From Thermoflexus sp. (GTDB lineage Bacteria > Chloroflexota > Anaerolineae > Thermoflexales > Thermoflexaceae), in the NCBI RefSeq assembly GCF_025055495.1, contig NZ_JANWXB010000011.1:1-44945 (forward strand): a stretch of DNA of 44,945 bases. Reading direction: 5' to 3'. A program made the position numbers and the translations under genes. Below, piece by piece: positions 33,025 to 39,306 of this stretch. The notes beneath the pieces were generated by a model. It saw nothing but the letters and a program-made list of their open reading frames with translations. It made no database searches and was not told where the DNA came from. Position 1 is the stretch's first letter; the number at the start of each line of letters is the position of its first letter.

Positions 33025-33061
33025 GGATGTTTAAGAATCGAATCTTGTATTGGAGGCCAGA

Positions 33062-33283
33062 GTGGGCGTTGCGGAGCTGTTGCAGGCTGCAGAATTCGTT
33101 GTGGATGCCCACGGGAATAAGAAAGCCGTGTTGCTGGATTATAAGGTCTGGGAAGAGCTGTTGACCTTGCTCGAAGACTGGGAGGATGCGGAGGAAATGC
33201 AGCGCCTTCGCGAGGCTGGCGAGGAAGCGCTCCCGTGGGAAGACGCCAAAGCCGAACTGCGTGCCAGGGGAAAAGATTTATAA
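33062..33283 (+). CDS. Type II antitoxin (RelB/Phd-like) of a RelE pair
   Basis: This 73-residue acidic protein lies 9 bp upstream of a RelE-type toxin. Its N-terminal part (VGVAELLQAAEFVVDAHGNKKAVLLDYKVWEEL) has the strand-helix pattern of Phd/YefM-like DNA-binding antitoxins. The C-terminal helix is rich in Glu and would wrap the toxin. GTG 33062 is favoured because GGAGG lies 5 nt upstream; a TTG at 33050 is possible. It should neutralise the toxin and repress the operon. Confidence 0.75.
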   Translation: MGVAELLQAAEFVVDAHGNKKAVLLDYKVWEELLTLLEDWEDAEEMQRLREAGEEALPWEDAKAELRARGKDL

Positions 33284-33292
33284 AACCAAGAA

Positions 33293-33544
33293 ATGTATCG
33301 CATTCTCATCCTGCGGAAAGCGATCAAAGATATTGATGATCTGCCCAAAGAATATGCCCGTTTGATCGCCGAACATATTGACCGGTTAAGAGAGAACCCT
33401 AGGCCGCTAGATGTAAAGAAGCTTCGAAAAGCCGGAGGTTATAGTTTACGAGTGGGAGTGTATCGGATCCTTTATGATATAGATGACGATACCCTCATCG
33501 TTACTATCTATCGGGTGAAGCATCGGCGCGAGGCTTACCGTTGA
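33293..33544 (+). CDS. RelE/ParE-family toxin
   Basis: This 83-residue protein has the RelE fold pattern: MYRILILRKAIKDIDDLPKE, LRKAGGYSLRVGVYRILYDI and the C-terminal IYRVKHRREAYR with the basic and Tyr residues used for mRNA cleavage in RelE enzymes. RelE toxins cut mRNA in the ribosomal A site; ParE relatives hit gyrase. The H/R/R/Y tail favours RelE. It is AT-richer than its neighbours, a sign of recent arrival. The pair sits between two tRNA-Ala genes. Confidence 0.88.
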   Translation: MYRILILRKAIKDIDDLPKEYARLIAEHIDRLRENPRPLDVKKLRKAGGYSLRVGVYRILYDIDDDTLIVTIYRVKHRREAYR

Positions 33545-33694: not shown

Positions 33695-33885
33695 CCCCCA
33701 GCTGGGTTTGGGACAGCTGAGAACCTTCCTTTACCGCTCAAAGAGCTGCTTTTAAGGAGAAGGATGGGAAATTTAAAAGGCGGGCGGAATCGCCGAAAGC
33801 GGCCCCGCTTGCGCTCCTATTCCTCGGATATGAGGGCCGAGCCCTTCGTCCAGAGTCTGCTTTACTGAAAGGCGATTCCATCGAA

Positions 33886-34163
33886 AGGCGAGGAAGGGGA
33901 GTAGTAGGCCATCCCCCAGCGAGCGGCCGGGTGGTGCAAGGCCGCAGGGCCCTCGGGGAGGGCCCGGGGGCGCTTTGCTCCCAAAGGCCGAACTCGCCCT
34001 GGAGCTGCCGGGGTGAAGGCGAGCCTCGCTAAAGCTCCGGCCGGGCTGCGCCCGTTATCGTGCCCGAGCGCACCGGAGGCGGGAGAACTTCCTTCCGGTG
34101 AATCAGGGTGGGACCGCGGAGGAACCCCCCTTCGTCCCTGACGGAGGGGGGTTCCTTGTTTTT
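33886..34163 (+). promoter_or_regulatory. T-box riboswitch, Leu (CTC) specifier, with terminator
   Basis: Stem I: AGGG (33895-33898) then the S-turn AGTA (33900-33903) faces the specifier loop GAA-CTC-G and CCCT (33997-34000). CTC (33993-33995) is a leucine codon. The apical part has AGCGAGC (33918-33924) and GGTGGTGCAA within a GCGGCC/GGCCGC stem, as in other T-boxes. The T-box core AGGGTGGGACCGCGG is at 34105-34119. The antiterminator pairs TCAGGG (34103-34108) with CCCTGA (34136-34141). The competing terminator pairs GGAACCCCCCT (34121-34131) with AGGGGGGTTCC (34145-34155) before TTGTTTTT. Uncharged tRNA-Leu should prevent termination and switch on the genes downstream, which include ilvE and leuS. 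The base meant to pair with the discriminator is G, not the U expected for an A73 tRNA. Confidence 0.88.
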
Positions 34164-34190: not shown

Positions 34191-34706
34191 ATGACGTTGA
34201 TGGCCCATGCGGCGGCAGGCGTGGTGGCCGCTTACATGATCCAGCGCGCTACGCATCAGCCGTTCCACCTGGGGATCGCCGGGCTGGCGGTCTTTCTCAG
34301 CGGGCTGCCGGACCTGGATCTCCTGTGGGGATGGTGGCGTCGGCGGCGCGCGGGGGAGGAAGGCCATAACCCTCACCATGCCCTCTGGACGCATACGCCG
34401 CTGTTCTGGGTGATCTGGGGGGGGATCCTGGCATGGGGATTCCATCTGCCGCTGGGGCTGGTGATCGGGCTGGCCCTGGTGCATCTCGTGCTGGATAGCA
34501 TCGGGACCGATGATGGGATCATGTGGCTCTGGCCCTGGCGTCGGCGTCAGTATGCCCTGTGGCCCCGGAATCTCCACGCCGCGGGGGCCCGCGGGCTGGC
34601 TTTCTATCGTCGATACTATCGACAGCCTCTGCTTCTGCTGATCGAGCTATCGCTGCTCACCGTGGCCTCGATGATCCTGGGCTGGGAGATCCTTCGAACT
34701 TTCTGA
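34191..34706 (+). CDS. DUF457/YdjM-like membrane-bound metal-dependent hydrolase
   Basis: This 171-residue protein has about four hydrophobic segments. Family marks are AHAAAGVVAAYMIQ near the N-terminus, FLSGLPDLDLLWGWW with the Asp pair, HHALWTHTPLFW with clustered His, and LALVHLVLDSIGTDDGIMW. The family is annotated as LexA-regulated or metal-dependent membrane hydrolases; no reaction is established. ATG 34191 lies 28 nt after the T-box terminator with GGGAGG 4 nt upstream, so it is the first gene of the leucine-responsive operon. IlvE begins 14 bp after its stop. Confidence 0.78.
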   Translation: MTLMAHAAAGVVAAYMIQRATHQPFHLGIAGLAVFLSGLPDLDLLWGWWRRRRAGEEGHNPHHALWTHTPLFWVIWGGILAWGFHLPLGLVIGLALVHLVLDSIGTDDGIMWLWPWRRRQYALWPRNLHAAGARGLAFYRRYYRQPLLLLIELSLLTVASMILGWEILRTF

Positions 34707-34719
34707 GGGAGGAGCCCGG

Positions 34720-35646
34720 ATGGCGCCAAGAAGCGAGTGGATCTGGTGGAACGGTCAGCTGGTGCCCTGGGATCAGGCGACGATCCATGTCACGGCCCAC
34801 GCCCTGCATTATGGGACCAGCGTGTTCGAGGGGATCCGGGCCTATGAGACGCCTCGTGGGGCAGCGATCTTCCGGCTCCGGCCCCACCTGGCCCGGCTCT
34901 TCTTCTCCGCCCGGCTCCTGCGCTTCGAGATCCCTTACACTGAAGACGAGCTGGCGCAGGCCGTAGTGGAGACGGTGCGGGCGAACCGCCATTCCTCCTG
35001 TTATATCCGCCCTCTGGTCTTTCGGGGCGCGGGGCCGCTGGGCGTGGATGGCCGCTCATGCCCGGTGGAGGTGGTGATCATCACCTTTGAGTGGGGGAAG
35101 TATCTCGGCCAGGAGGCCCTGGAGAAAGGCGTGGACGTTATTGTCTCCTCATGGCGACGCATGGCGCCGGACACGTTCCCGGCCCTGGGCAAGATCGGCG
35201 GCCAGTATGTCAACTCACAGTTTGCGGCGATGGAGGCGCATGATCTGGGATATGCGGAAGCCATTATGCTGGATGCCTATGGCTACGTGGCGGAGGGCAG
35301 CGGGGAGAATCTCTTCCTGGTCAAGGACGGTGTGCTTTACACGCCGCCTTTGCATCAATCGATTCTGCTTGGCGTAACCCGCGATACCGTGCTGACTCTG
35401 GCCCGAGAGCAGGGTATTGAGGTGCGGGAACAGCCCATTCCGCGGGAATGGCTGTATGCAGCCGACGAGATCTTCATGACGGGCACGGCGGCCGAGATCA
35501 CGCCGGTGCGTTCCGTGGATCGCATCCCGATCGGCCGGGGGGAACCCGGCCCGATCACCCGTCGGCTCCAGGAGCGCTTCTTCGCCATCGTGACGGGCGA
35601 GGCCCCCGATGGATATGGGTGGTTGACGCCTGTAGGATCTGCATAG
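34720..35646 (+). CDS. ilvE: Branched-chain amino acid aminotransferase
   Basis: This 308-residue fold-type IV PLP enzyme has the lysine that forms the Schiff base at K158 (FPALGKIGGQYVNSQ). HYGTSVFEGIRAYET at 30-44 is the family's N-terminal signature. GYVAEGSGENLFLVKDG and TGTAAEITPV complete the cofactor site. It transfers the amino group between glutamate and the 2-oxoacids of Leu, Ile and Val. GGGAGGAG precedes the ATG. It is co-transcribed with leuS behind a leucine T-box, so leucine shortage would raise both synthesis and charging. Confidence 0.96.
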   Translation: MAPRSEWIWWNGQLVPWDQATIHVTAHALHYGTSVFEGIRAYETPRGAAIFRLRPHLARLFFSARLLRFEIPYTEDELAQAVVETVRANRHSSCYIRPLVFRGAGPLGVDGRSCPVEVVIITFEWGKYLGQEALEKGVDVIVSSWRRMAPDTFPALGKIGGQYVNSQFAAMEAHDLGYAEAIMLDAYGYVAEGSGENLFLVKDGVLYTPPLHQSILLGVTRDTVLTLAREQGIEVREQPIPREWLYAADEIFMTGTAAEITPVRSVDRIPIGRGEPGPITRRLQERFFAIVTGEAPDGYGWLTPVGSA

Positions 35647-35732: not shown

Positions 35733-38177
35733 ATGGAGCGCTATGATCCGCAGGTCATTGAGCCGAAATGGCAGCAGCGCTGGGAGGAGACCGGCATCTA
35801 TCGGGCGGTGCGCGACCCGAGCCGCCCCAAGTTCTACTTCCTGACGATGTTCCCCTACCCCTCGGGGGACCTGCACATGGGCCACTGGTTCGCCATGGCT
35901 CCCAGCGACGCGGTCGCTCGCTACCTGCGCATGAAGGGCTATAATGTCCTCTTCCCCATCGGCTTTGACGCCTTTGGCCTGCCAGCGGAGAACGCGGCCA
36001 TCAAGCACAACACCCACCCGAAAACGTGGACCTACGCCAACATCGAGCGGATGCGCCGGCAGCTGCGCAGCATGGGGGCCTCCTTCGACTGGACACGCGA
36101 GGTGGTCACCTGCGAGCCGGAGTATTACAAGTGGAACCAGTGGTTTTTCATCCAGTTTTTCAAGCGCGGGCTGGCCTACCGCAAACGCTCGGCGGTGGAC
36201 TTCTGCCCGAAGTGCAATACCACCCTGGCCCGGGAGCAGGTGGTCTCTGAGGACGGCGAGCGGGTCTGCGAACGCTGCGGGACGCCGGTGATCAAAAAGG
36301 AGTTGGAGCAGTGGTTCCTGCGCATCACCGCTTACGCCGAGGAATTGCTGGACCACAGCCGGCTGGACTGGCCGGAGCGGGTCTGCACGATGCAGAAGAA
36401 CTGGATCGGCCGCAGCGAGGGGGCGGAGATCGTCTTCCCCACCGAGGGCGAGGAGTCCATCGTGGTGTTCACCACGCGGCCCGACACGCTGTTCGGAGCA
36501 ACCTTCATGGTGCTGGCCCCCGAGCACCCGCTGGTGCCGAAATTGACAGCTCCAGACCGCCGGAAGGAGGTGGAGGCATACATCCAGGAAGCCCAGCGGC
36601 GCACGGAGATCGAGCGGCTATCTCTGGAACGGGAGAAGACGGGGGTCTTCATCGGCGCGTATGCCCGGCACCCGCTGACGGAGGAGCGATTGCCGATCTG
36701 GATCTCGGACTATGTGCTGATGGAATACGGGACCGGGGCCATCATGGGGGTGCCGGCCCACGATCAGCGTGACTTCGAGTTCGCGGTGAAGTTTCAACTG
36801 CCCATCCGGGTGGTGATCGCCCCGCCGGACTGGAAGGGCGAGCCCCTTTCCGCTGCCTACGAGGGACCCGGGACGATGGTGAACTCCGGCCCCTTCGACG
36901 GCTTGCCGAGCGAGGAGGGGAAGCGGGCGGTGACGGCGGAGCTGGAGCGGCGGGGTCTGGGCCGGCCGGCGATCTCCTACCGGCTGCGGGATTGGTGCAT
37001 CAGCCGCCAGCGCTACTGGGGCACTCCGATCCCTATTATCTACTGCCCGACGTGCGGCATGGTCCCGGTGCCAGAGGACCAGCTGCCGGTGCTGCTGCCC
37101 GAGAGCGTCAACGTGTTGCCCACCGGCGAGTCCCCGCTGAAATACCTGGAGGACTTTGTGAAGACCACCTGCCCGCAGTGCGGTGGGCCGGCGGAGCGGG
37201 AGACCGACACCATGGACACCTTCGTGGACTCCTCCTGGTATCAATATCGTTATCTGAGCCCGCATAAGGAGGACGCTCCGTGGGACGAGGAGGAGGCCCG
37301 TTACTGGCTGCCGGTGGACCTGTATACGGGCGGGGTGGAGCACGCTACGATGCACCTGCTCTACACCCGGTTCTGGACCAAGGTCCTGCGGGATATGGGG
37401 ATGGTCTGGTTCGATGAGCCGATGATCCGCCTGCGCAACCAGGGCGTCATCCTGGGGGAGGATCGGGAGAAGATGTCCAAGTCGCGGGGGAATGTGGTGG
37501 CCCCGGATGAACTGGTGATGCGCTATGGGGCGGATACGGTGCGGGCGTATCTGATGTTCGGCTTCCGATGGGATATGGGCGGTCCATGGAGCTCCACGGG
37601 CATCGAGGGCGTGCACCGCTGGCTGCACCGCGTATGGAACCTGGTCCTGGAGCCCGCCAGCGTCGAGGGGATACCCACCCCTGAGCAGGTGGCTGCGTTG
37701 CGACGTTGGACCCATCGGACCATCCAGCGGGTGAGCCGGGATCTGGAGGATTTCGAGTTCAACACCGCCATCGCTGCGCTGATGGAGTTCACCAACTACC
37801 TGCAGGACGCCAAGGATACCCCTGTGGTTCACCACGAGGCGTGGGATGAGGCCATCCGGACCCTGATGCTGTTGCTGGCACCGTTTGCGCCGCATCTGGC
37901 GGAGGAGCTGTGGGAGCGCGTGGGGTATCCGTATAGCGTCCACCAGCAGCCGTGGCCCCAGTGGGATGAGGAGCTGGCCAAAGCGGACACCATCACCCTG
38001 GTGATCCAGATCAACGGCCGGGTGCGGGATCGGGTGGACGTGCCGGCCTCCATCACCGAGGAGGAGGCCAGGCGCATCGCGCTGGACCGGGCCAACGTCC
38101 GTCGCCACTTAGGCGACCGGCAGCCCCAGCGCATTATCTACGTGCCGGGCCGGCTGATCAACATCGTGGTGGAATGA
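35733..38177 (+). CDS. leuS: Leucyl-tRNA synthetase
   Basis: This is an 814-residue class I synthetase. The HIGH-type motif is PYPSGDLHMGHW (about 41-52) and the KMSKS loop is GEDREKMSKSRGN (about 576-588). A zinc-binding insert (CPKCNTTLAREQ...CERCG) lies near 155-185, and the CP1 editing domain fills roughly 220-410 with its T-rich FTTRPDTLFGATFM. The anticodon-binding and C-terminal domains follow. It charges tRNA-Leu. GGAGGT lies 9 nt before ATG 35733; a much longer in-frame extension into ilvE is rejected. The operon's T-box with its CTC specifier is a direct link between this gene and the leucine supply. Confidence 0.97.
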   Translation: MERYDPQVIEPKWQQRWEETGIYRAVRDPSRPKFYFLTMFPYPSGDLHMGHWFAMAPSDAVARYLRMKGYNVLFPIGFDAFGLPAENAAIKHNTHPKTWTYANIERMRRQLRSMGASFDWTREVVTCEPEYYKWNQWFFIQFFKRGLAYRKRSAVDFCPKCNTTLAREQVVSEDGERVCERCGTPVIKKELEQWFLRITAYAEELLDHSRLDWPERVCTMQKNWIGRSEGAEIVFPTEGEESIVVFTTRPDTLFGATFMVLAPEHPLVPKLTAPDRRKEVEAYIQEAQRRTEIERLSLEREKTGVFIGAYARHPLTEERLPIWISDYVLMEYGTGAIMGVPAHDQRDFEFAVKFQLPIRVVIAPPDWKGEPLSAAYEGPGTMVNSGPFDGLPSEEGKRAVTAELERRGLGRPAISYRLRDWCISRQRYWGTPIPIIYCPTCGMVPVPEDQLPVLLPESVNVLPTGESPLKYLEDFVKTTCPQCGGPAERETDTMDTFVDSSWYQYRYLSPHKEDAPWDEEEARYWLPVDLYTGGVEHATMHLLYTRFWTKVLRDMGMVWFDEPMIRLRNQGVILGEDREKMSKSRGNVVAPDELVMRYGADTVRAYLMFGFRWDMGGPWSSTGIEGVHRWLHRVWNLVLEPASVEGIPTPEQVAALRRWTHRTIQRVSRDLEDFEFNTAIAALMEFTNYLQDAKDTPVVHHEAWDEAIRTLMLLLAPFAPHLAEELWERVGYPYSVHQQPWPQWDEELAKADTITLVIQINGRVRDRVDVPASITEEEARRIALDRANVRRHLGDRQPQRIIYVPGRLINIVVE

Positions 38178-38379: not shown

Positions 38380-39306
38380 ATGTCCATCACGCTCGATGAT
38401 CTTCCAACTCTGCTGGCGTTGCTAGATAAGCATCCCGAATGGCGGGAGGCTCTGCGGGCGGTTTTGCTTTCTGAAGAGCTGCTGAAGATGCCTGAGGAGC
38501 TTCGACGTCTGGAGGGGGTGATCGCCAAGATCCTGGAAGCCCACCGCTTGGGCGAGGAGGCTCTCGCCGCCTTTCGGATGGAAAGTGAGCGGCGATTTAT
38601 GGAGCTGGCCGGGGCCCTCACTCGTTTAAGCGAAATGCAGAATCGCTTGTCTGAGGTGCAGGCGCGGATGGAGGAGCGGATGACGCGCCTGGAGGAGCGG
38701 GTGGGGCGTCTGGAGGAGGCGGTGGCCCGTTTGATTGAGGTGCAGGCGCGGATGGAGGAACGGATGACGCGCCTGGAGGAGCGGGTAGGGCATTTGGAGG
38801 AGCGGGTGGGGCGTCTGGAGGAGGCGGTGGCCCGTTTGATTGAGGTGCAGGCGCGGATGGAGGAACGGATGACGCGCCTGGAGGAGCGGATGATCCGAAT
38901 GGAGGAACGGATATTGCGGCGTCTTAATGCGTTTGGAGCTCGTTGGGGGTTGCGCAGTGAGCGAGCGTGGCGGGAAGGGATGCGGGCCGTGCTGGAAGAA
39001 GCGGGGTTCGAAGTAGAGCGATGGACCGACTTTGATGAGCGGGGAGAGGTCTTCAACTTCCCATCTGATGTAGAAGTGGATGTGGTAATTCGAAATGGAC
39101 GGGTTCTAGTGGTGGAGCTGCGGACTTCGGTCAGCCGAGAGGCGCTTCCCACCATGGAACGAAAGGTGAGGTTCTACGAAGGCCGAACGGGCCGCAAGGT
39201 AGACCGAAGGATTCTGGTGACCCCATGGTATGATCCAGGCGTAGATGAGCTGGCTCGCCGGCTAGGATGGGAGCTCTACGGTGAACCGGAGGAGATCCAG
39301 GAATAA
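38380..39306 (+). CDS. DUF3782-type coiled-coil protein with nuclease-like C-terminus
   Basis: This 308-residue protein has residues 1-70 helical, then a long coiled coil (about 80-190) of near-identical repeats, then a C-terminal domain (about 195-300). The C-terminal domain has FNFPSDVEVDVVIRNGRVLVVELRTSVS, a beta-strand/acidic pattern of PD-(D/E)XK nuclease folds, where the usual E-x-K reads E-L-R. These proteins are frequent in thermophiles and cyanobacteria; no function is established. A TATAAT box lies at 38242-38247 but its -35 is poor. The terminator at 39333 ends the transcript. Confidence 0.8.
   Translation: MSITLDDLPTLLALLDKHPEWREALRAVLLSEELLKMPEELRRLEGVIAKILEAHRLGEEALAAFRMESERRFMELAGALTRLSEMQNRLSEVQARMEERMTRLEERVGRLEEAVARLIEVQARMEERMTRLEERVGHLEERVGRLEEAVARLIEVQARMEERMTRLEERMIRMEERILRRLNAFGARWGLRSERAWREGMRAVLEEAGFEVERWTDFDERGEVFNFPSDVEVDVVIRNGRVLVVELRTSVSREALPTMERKVRFYEGRTGRKVDRRILVTPWYDPGVDELARRLGWELYGEPEEIQE
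38653..38910 (+). repeat. In-frame tandem repeats encoding the coiled coil
   Basis: Unit 1 (38653-38736, 84 bp, 28 codons), unit 2 (38737-38841, 105 bp, 35 codons with one extra heptad) and a partial unit 3 (38842-38910) start with the same GAGGTGCAGGCGCGGATGGA. They are almost identical at the DNA level. Lengths are multiples of 21 bp, so heptads are gained or lost without breaking the frame. Confidence 0.85.

Follow-up and report, generated by a model that had tools for sequence, protein, structure and literature searches.

Does the leader that precedes DUF457, ilvE and leuS in Thermoflexus, a hot-spring bacterium of the Chloroflexota with a high-GC genome, form a genuine leucine-sensing T-box, and what is to be made of the one base in it that lacks its usual pairing to tRNA-Leu? 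In the window (the whole stretch of DNA analysed, 44,945 nucleotides), a full-length transcription-type T-box leader extends from 33882 to 34163 on the forward strand, upstream of these three genes; the parts of the leader and the genes themselves are on that strand too. The nearest named leuS locus is that of Candidatus Thermoflexus sinensis (95% identity). A preliminary description had recognised here a T-box with both family hallmarks, and this is borne out: the specifier loop and the T-box sequence are present, and the covariance-model search with the Rfam T-box model that it had proposed as a check returns a full-length RF00230 match at 33882-34142 (model positions 1-219 of 219, 56.2 bits, E = 1.4e-11 in the window; E = 1.8e-11 when scored against the whole genome). 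The terminator and U-tract extend the leader from the end of this match (34142) to 34163. The interval first given, 33886-34163, is correct at its end, its start being four bases late with respect to the covariance-model start.

The match was found with an E-value threshold, as its score lies below the curated gathering score of RF00230 (93 bits). This is also why scanning the window with Rfam defaults returns two tRNA-Ala genes only and leaves out the T-box leader. Only one of the six RF00230 T-boxes of the genome exceeds the gathering cut-off, four of the five siblings of the leucine leader falling below it; the low score is therefore probably a matter of GC-rich leaders more than of a weak case. 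The fold of the leader lies 3.9 standard deviations below those of dinucleotide shuffles (z-score -3.9), with none of 200 shuffles as stable.

All the elements of a T-box leader RNA can be placed, from Stem I through Stem II, the IIA/B element and Stem III to the antiterminator and terminator. Stem I (33888-34005), supported by the Rfam alignment, by complementarity and by compensatory changes in the genus alignment, comprises a base with a kink-turn (GA) motif (33888-33889/34004-34005), a lower helix (33896-33898/33997-33999), a specifier-loop helix (33907-33910/33986-33989), a subapical helix (33912-33916/33955-33959), the AG-bulge AGCGA (33918-33922) and an apical hairpin with the loop GGTGCAA (33923-33945). 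The specifier loop reads GAACTCGCC. Stem II (34007-34041, helix 34007-34013/34035-34041) is supported by complementarity and two pairs changed on both sides, and Stem III (34071-34100, helix 34071-34077/34094-34100) by complementarity and one such pair; between them lies the IIA/B pseudoknot element with its CCGTTA (F-box), placed at 34041-34061 by the Rfam alignment.

The antiterminator (34104-34140) consists of helices A1 (34104-34108/34136-34140) and A2 (34116-34120/34131-34135), all pairs of which are kept in six species, including a G-U wobble at the base of A2 (G at 34116 with U at 34135). Directly after the 5' strand of A1 comes a 7-nt bulge, TGGGACC (34109-34115), and the T-box sequence, AGGGTGGGACCGCGG (34105-34119), is invariant in seven Thermoflexus leaders. 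A T-box bulge normally reads UGGN, N pairing with base 73 of the tRNA (the discriminator). The UGGN of this leader stands next to A1 and before ACC, as expected of a member of the family; it reads UGGG (34109-34112), and its last base, the G at 34112, lies opposite A73 of tRNA-Leu, to which it is not complementary. The intrinsic terminator (34120-34163) has a 17-pair stem (34120-34136/34140-34156) followed by TGTTTTT to 34163. Antiterminator and terminator exclude each other because the 3' strand of the former sits within the stem of the latter, so that the mutually exclusive helices reported earlier hold up, with a shared strand and a terminator that is conserved in the genus.

Matches at the DNA level to the leader and first gene were found within the genus, where seven species, that of the source genome among them, retain an intact T-box core, with ilvE and leuS downstream of the leader in the six others. 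In an alignment of six Thermoflexus leaders, 99.2% of the pair cells in the T-box helices contain standard pairs and five pairs are changed on both sides, while slid controls of the same alignment give 33-55% pairing and no pair changed on both sides. Compensatory changes are present in Stem I, Stem II, Stem III and the terminator, the last of which is paired in every cell (100%). That the entire antiterminator is invariant argues, at the level of sequence, for a switch that still works.

That the leader is instead a decayed or chance T-box-like sequence without regulation might be suggested by its score below the gathering value, but the E-value of 1.4e-11, the compensatory changes and the invariance of T-box and antiterminator in seven species make this extremely improbable, and conservation largely refutes it. 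A truly decayed copy, moreover, looks very different. This copy is found in an eighth Thermoflexus genome (G007), where the leader, AGGCTGCGATCGCGG, has decayed while ilvE is intact, the contig ending soon after. As ilvE is kept there behind a decayed leader, the switch is not indispensable everywhere. DUF457 is broken in the same genome (G007:C176) and lies about 1.5 kb from its own remnant. The draft genome of a ninth Thermoflexus (G008) yielded no leader and no leuS.

Which amino acid the leader reads can be established from its siblings. The five remaining T-boxes of the genome precede trpS, trpE, valS, pheS and alaX-ileS, and in each of them the codon immediately ahead of the Stem I 3' strand spells the amino acid of the gene downstream: TGG (trpS and trpE), GTC (valS), TTC (pheS) and ATC (alaX-ileS). 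In the same register, which names the T-box's own gene in all five, the specifier of the leuS leader is therefore CTC (33993-33995), a leucine codon that pairs with the anticodon GAG. The agreement of a CTC specifier with the downstream leuS, proposed in the preliminary description, is thus supported by this shared register, by the presence of a tRNA-Leu(GAG) gene in the genome and by leuS and ilvE both lying downstream. A CUC triplet is likewise described, in a title cited in PMC2494555, as conferring leucine control on the Bacillus subtilis ilv-leu operon.

Two of the siblings have features of their own. The isoleucine-type T-box (ATC, UGGU; G000:C6 5714-6025, reverse strand) is followed first by the gene of an AlaX-like tRNA-editing protein (tRNA_SAD domain) and next by ileS; an isoleucine operon thus appears to contain an alanyl-type editing domain. 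The trpE T-box (G000:C419:3249-3579) gives two separate Rfam matches, apparently because a long insertion separates its Stem II portion from its antiterminator.

A search for another tRNA whose discriminator would suit UGGG yields a single candidate, threonine, by wobble. The loop reads GAACTC, in which a shifted frame gives ACT, and the tRNA-Thr(CGT) of the genome carries U73, a possible wobble partner for the G of UGGG; the leader could accordingly be imagined to sense tRNA-Thr. The register of the five siblings, in which the specifier comes immediately ahead of the 3' stem, contradicts this, as it selects CTC and not ACT. The GAACTC loop is also common to T-boxes ahead of leuS that have U at N, and the operon under the leader includes leuS itself, leaving threonine sensing with an almost negligible probability.

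From its parts, the register of its specifier, its competing helices and its conservation, all read in the DNA, the leader is very probably a T-box riboswitch of class I, the transcription-attenuating type, that is specific for tRNA-Leu(GAG) and controls DUF457-ilvE-leuS. Coordinates and profile matches confirm this gene order, as first described: a DUF457/YdjM-family membrane protein (34191-34706, 171 aa; PF04307, 47.7 bits) is followed by ilvE, encoding a branched-chain amino acid transaminase (34720-35646, 308 aa; TIGR01122, 424.9 bits, and NF005146, 440 bits, both over cut-off), and by leuS, encoding leucyl-tRNA synthetase (35733-38177, 814 aa; TIGR00396, 1023 bits, over cut-off), IlvE and LeuS both passing NCBIfam equivalog cut-offs. 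The pairing of aminotransferase and synthetase under one leucine-sensing leader, pointed out earlier as a neat arrangement, is supported; it is tidy, and not new in kind. A short way upstream of the T-box, between the tRNA-Ala CGC and GGC genes, lies a pair made of a Phd/RelB-like antitoxin (a weak match) and a ParE-family toxin (33050-33544), and downstream of leuS a DUF3782 and PDDEXK_10 protein (38380-39306) with long heptad repeats (MEERMTRLEER...), the number of which may vary.

Elsewhere in the class, CTC T-boxes are found a few hundred bases upstream of leuS (for example in G010, G027, G201 and G270). These leucine T-boxes of other families share the GAACTC loop, the T-box core and the leuS target with the Thermoflexus leader, but have U at N, and in those checked leuS comes next, with no DUF457-ilvE in between. 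The insertion of DUF457-ilvE between leader and leuS therefore looks like a Thermoflexus-specific arrangement. In another family of the class (G017:C124), a leucine T-box is followed by ORFs that resemble, by eye from their translations, a hot-dog thioesterase and a metallo-beta-lactamase-fold protein, and then by leuS.

What remains to be explained is the G of UGGG, a base mismatched to A73 of tRNA-Leu and a detail absent from the preliminary description. Among the 66 T-boxes with a readable core in the loci retrieved for this comparison, N is U in 48, C in 11 and G in 7, all seven of the latter being Thermoflexus leucine leaders. A pattern search of 41 relatives finds G at N in seven Thermoflexus genomes and nowhere else, and a pattern search of 301 Chloroflexota genomes finds UGGG T-boxes in three, all Thermoflexus. 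Counting distinct leucine T-boxes, G occupies N in 7/7 from Thermoflexus and U in all 32 others collected. An assembly error is excluded by the occurrence of the same base in seven separate genomes.

On the side of the tRNA, tRNA-Leu(GAG) has A73 in the source genome and in all eight congeners, so that the fourth acceptor pair is G.A and not U-A. Genome tRNA genes were taken by region, the comparison of discriminators covering the Leu, Val, Phe and Ile T-boxes: tRNA-Val, tRNA-Phe and tRNA-Ile have A73, matching the UGGU of their own T-boxes, while N of the leucine leader is not complementary to its cognate discriminator. The Trp T-boxes of the genome carry UGGC. According to TBDB, N matches the discriminator in the majority of cases, the exceptions named being Trp (wobble) and His (PMC7778990). 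As complementarity to the discriminator is usual rather than defining, the membership of the leucine leader in the T-box family stands.

The mismatch appears to cost little. Nearest-neighbour energies at 37 C are -2.4 kcal/mol for UGGG:ACCA and -2.5 for UGGU:ACCA, or -5.1 and -6.0 when flanks are included, a cost of 0.1 to 0.9 kcal/mol for G instead of U at N, where G does better than C or A. Terminal G.A mismatches stack well, which fits this small cost. Tolerance of the G.A73 contact is thereby supported, and the G is most likely, as far as can be judged from sequence, a variant fixed in the lineage and tolerated by a switch that works.

The G could also represent a functional tuning, the G.A73 contact lowering affinity for tRNA-Leu or speeding its release so that the switch would fire only at strong leucine starvation. 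The consistent split between Thermoflexus and the other leucine T-boxes collected, and the invariance in the genus of the whole T-box around the G, would suit such tuning. Across the same seven genomes, however, 33-39% of the 4-fold sites of ilvE and leuS are invariant as well (tree length 2.3-2.9), and the computed energy cost is small, so that tuning seems improbable. Given the share of invariant 4-fold sites, the constancy of the G is no proof of selection, and selection on it is not demonstrable in this way. In its broader form, that of a functional exception to the UGGN-discriminator rule which changes the set-point of the switch and is perhaps tied to growth at high temperature, the idea is doubtful.

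Another conceivable effect of the G would be to promote a competing hairpin between GGGAC and GTCCC, in which the bulge would be hidden and the leader biased to OFF. In the window sequence, this hairpin is indeed 1.7 kcal/mol more favourable than the antiterminator when N is G, an advantage that it lacks when N is U. The effect is inconsistent in the genus, however: in three congeners (G003, G004 and G006) misfolding would be promoted more strongly by U than by G, and in a fourth (G001) the sign changes with temperature. With support in the window sequence and no consistent support across the genus, an effect through this hairpin is very unlikely, and a tolerated variant is still the preferred reading of the G.

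By analogy with the T-box family, tRNA binding, antitermination, a response to leucine and tolerance of the mismatch would be expected of the leader. When leucine is short, uncharged tRNA-Leu would make two contacts by base pairing, one between its anticodon and the CTC specifier of Stem I, the other between its free ACCA end and the antiterminator bulge, the latter in Thermoflexus through three Watson-Crick pairs (UGG:CCA) and a terminal G.A73 mismatch replacing the usual U-A73. The antiterminator would then be held and the terminator blocked, RNA polymerase reading on into DUF457-ilvE-leuS, and this readthrough would increase both the final reaction of leucine synthesis, through IlvE, and the charging of leucine, through LeuS. 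The 3' end of charged tRNA-Leu would be unable to dock, and the terminator would win.

Compared with the B. subtilis ilv-leu leader (RF00230 class I, Leu CUC), the Thermoflexus leader has the same Stem I specifier loop, AG bulge, apical loop and kink-turn base, followed in both by Stem II, IIA/B, Stem III, the T-box bulge and a competing terminator. It differs from that type in carrying UGGG and not UGGU despite the A73 of its tRNA-Leu, in its very high GC content, and in having DUF457 and ilvE between leader and leuS. No mention of Thermoflexus together with T-boxes was found in the literature searched. The T-boxes described from Chloroflexi in 2008 were those of Dehalococcoides ileS, trpE and a trpB-like gene (PMC2494555); they belong to the same phylum and regulator class, and no leucine T-box is listed there for the two genomes studied.

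The leucine leader is thus of an ordinary T-box type, with one unusual feature, a genus-fixed G without the usual pairing to tRNA-Leu. Thermophilic Chloroflexota thereby gain a well-supported leucine T-box, together with its regulon, that escapes default Rfam scans. The G.A73 contact provides a natural test of the weight of the discriminator pair in T-box sensing, and a specificity predictor that demands discriminator complementarity would mis-score a genuine leucine switch.
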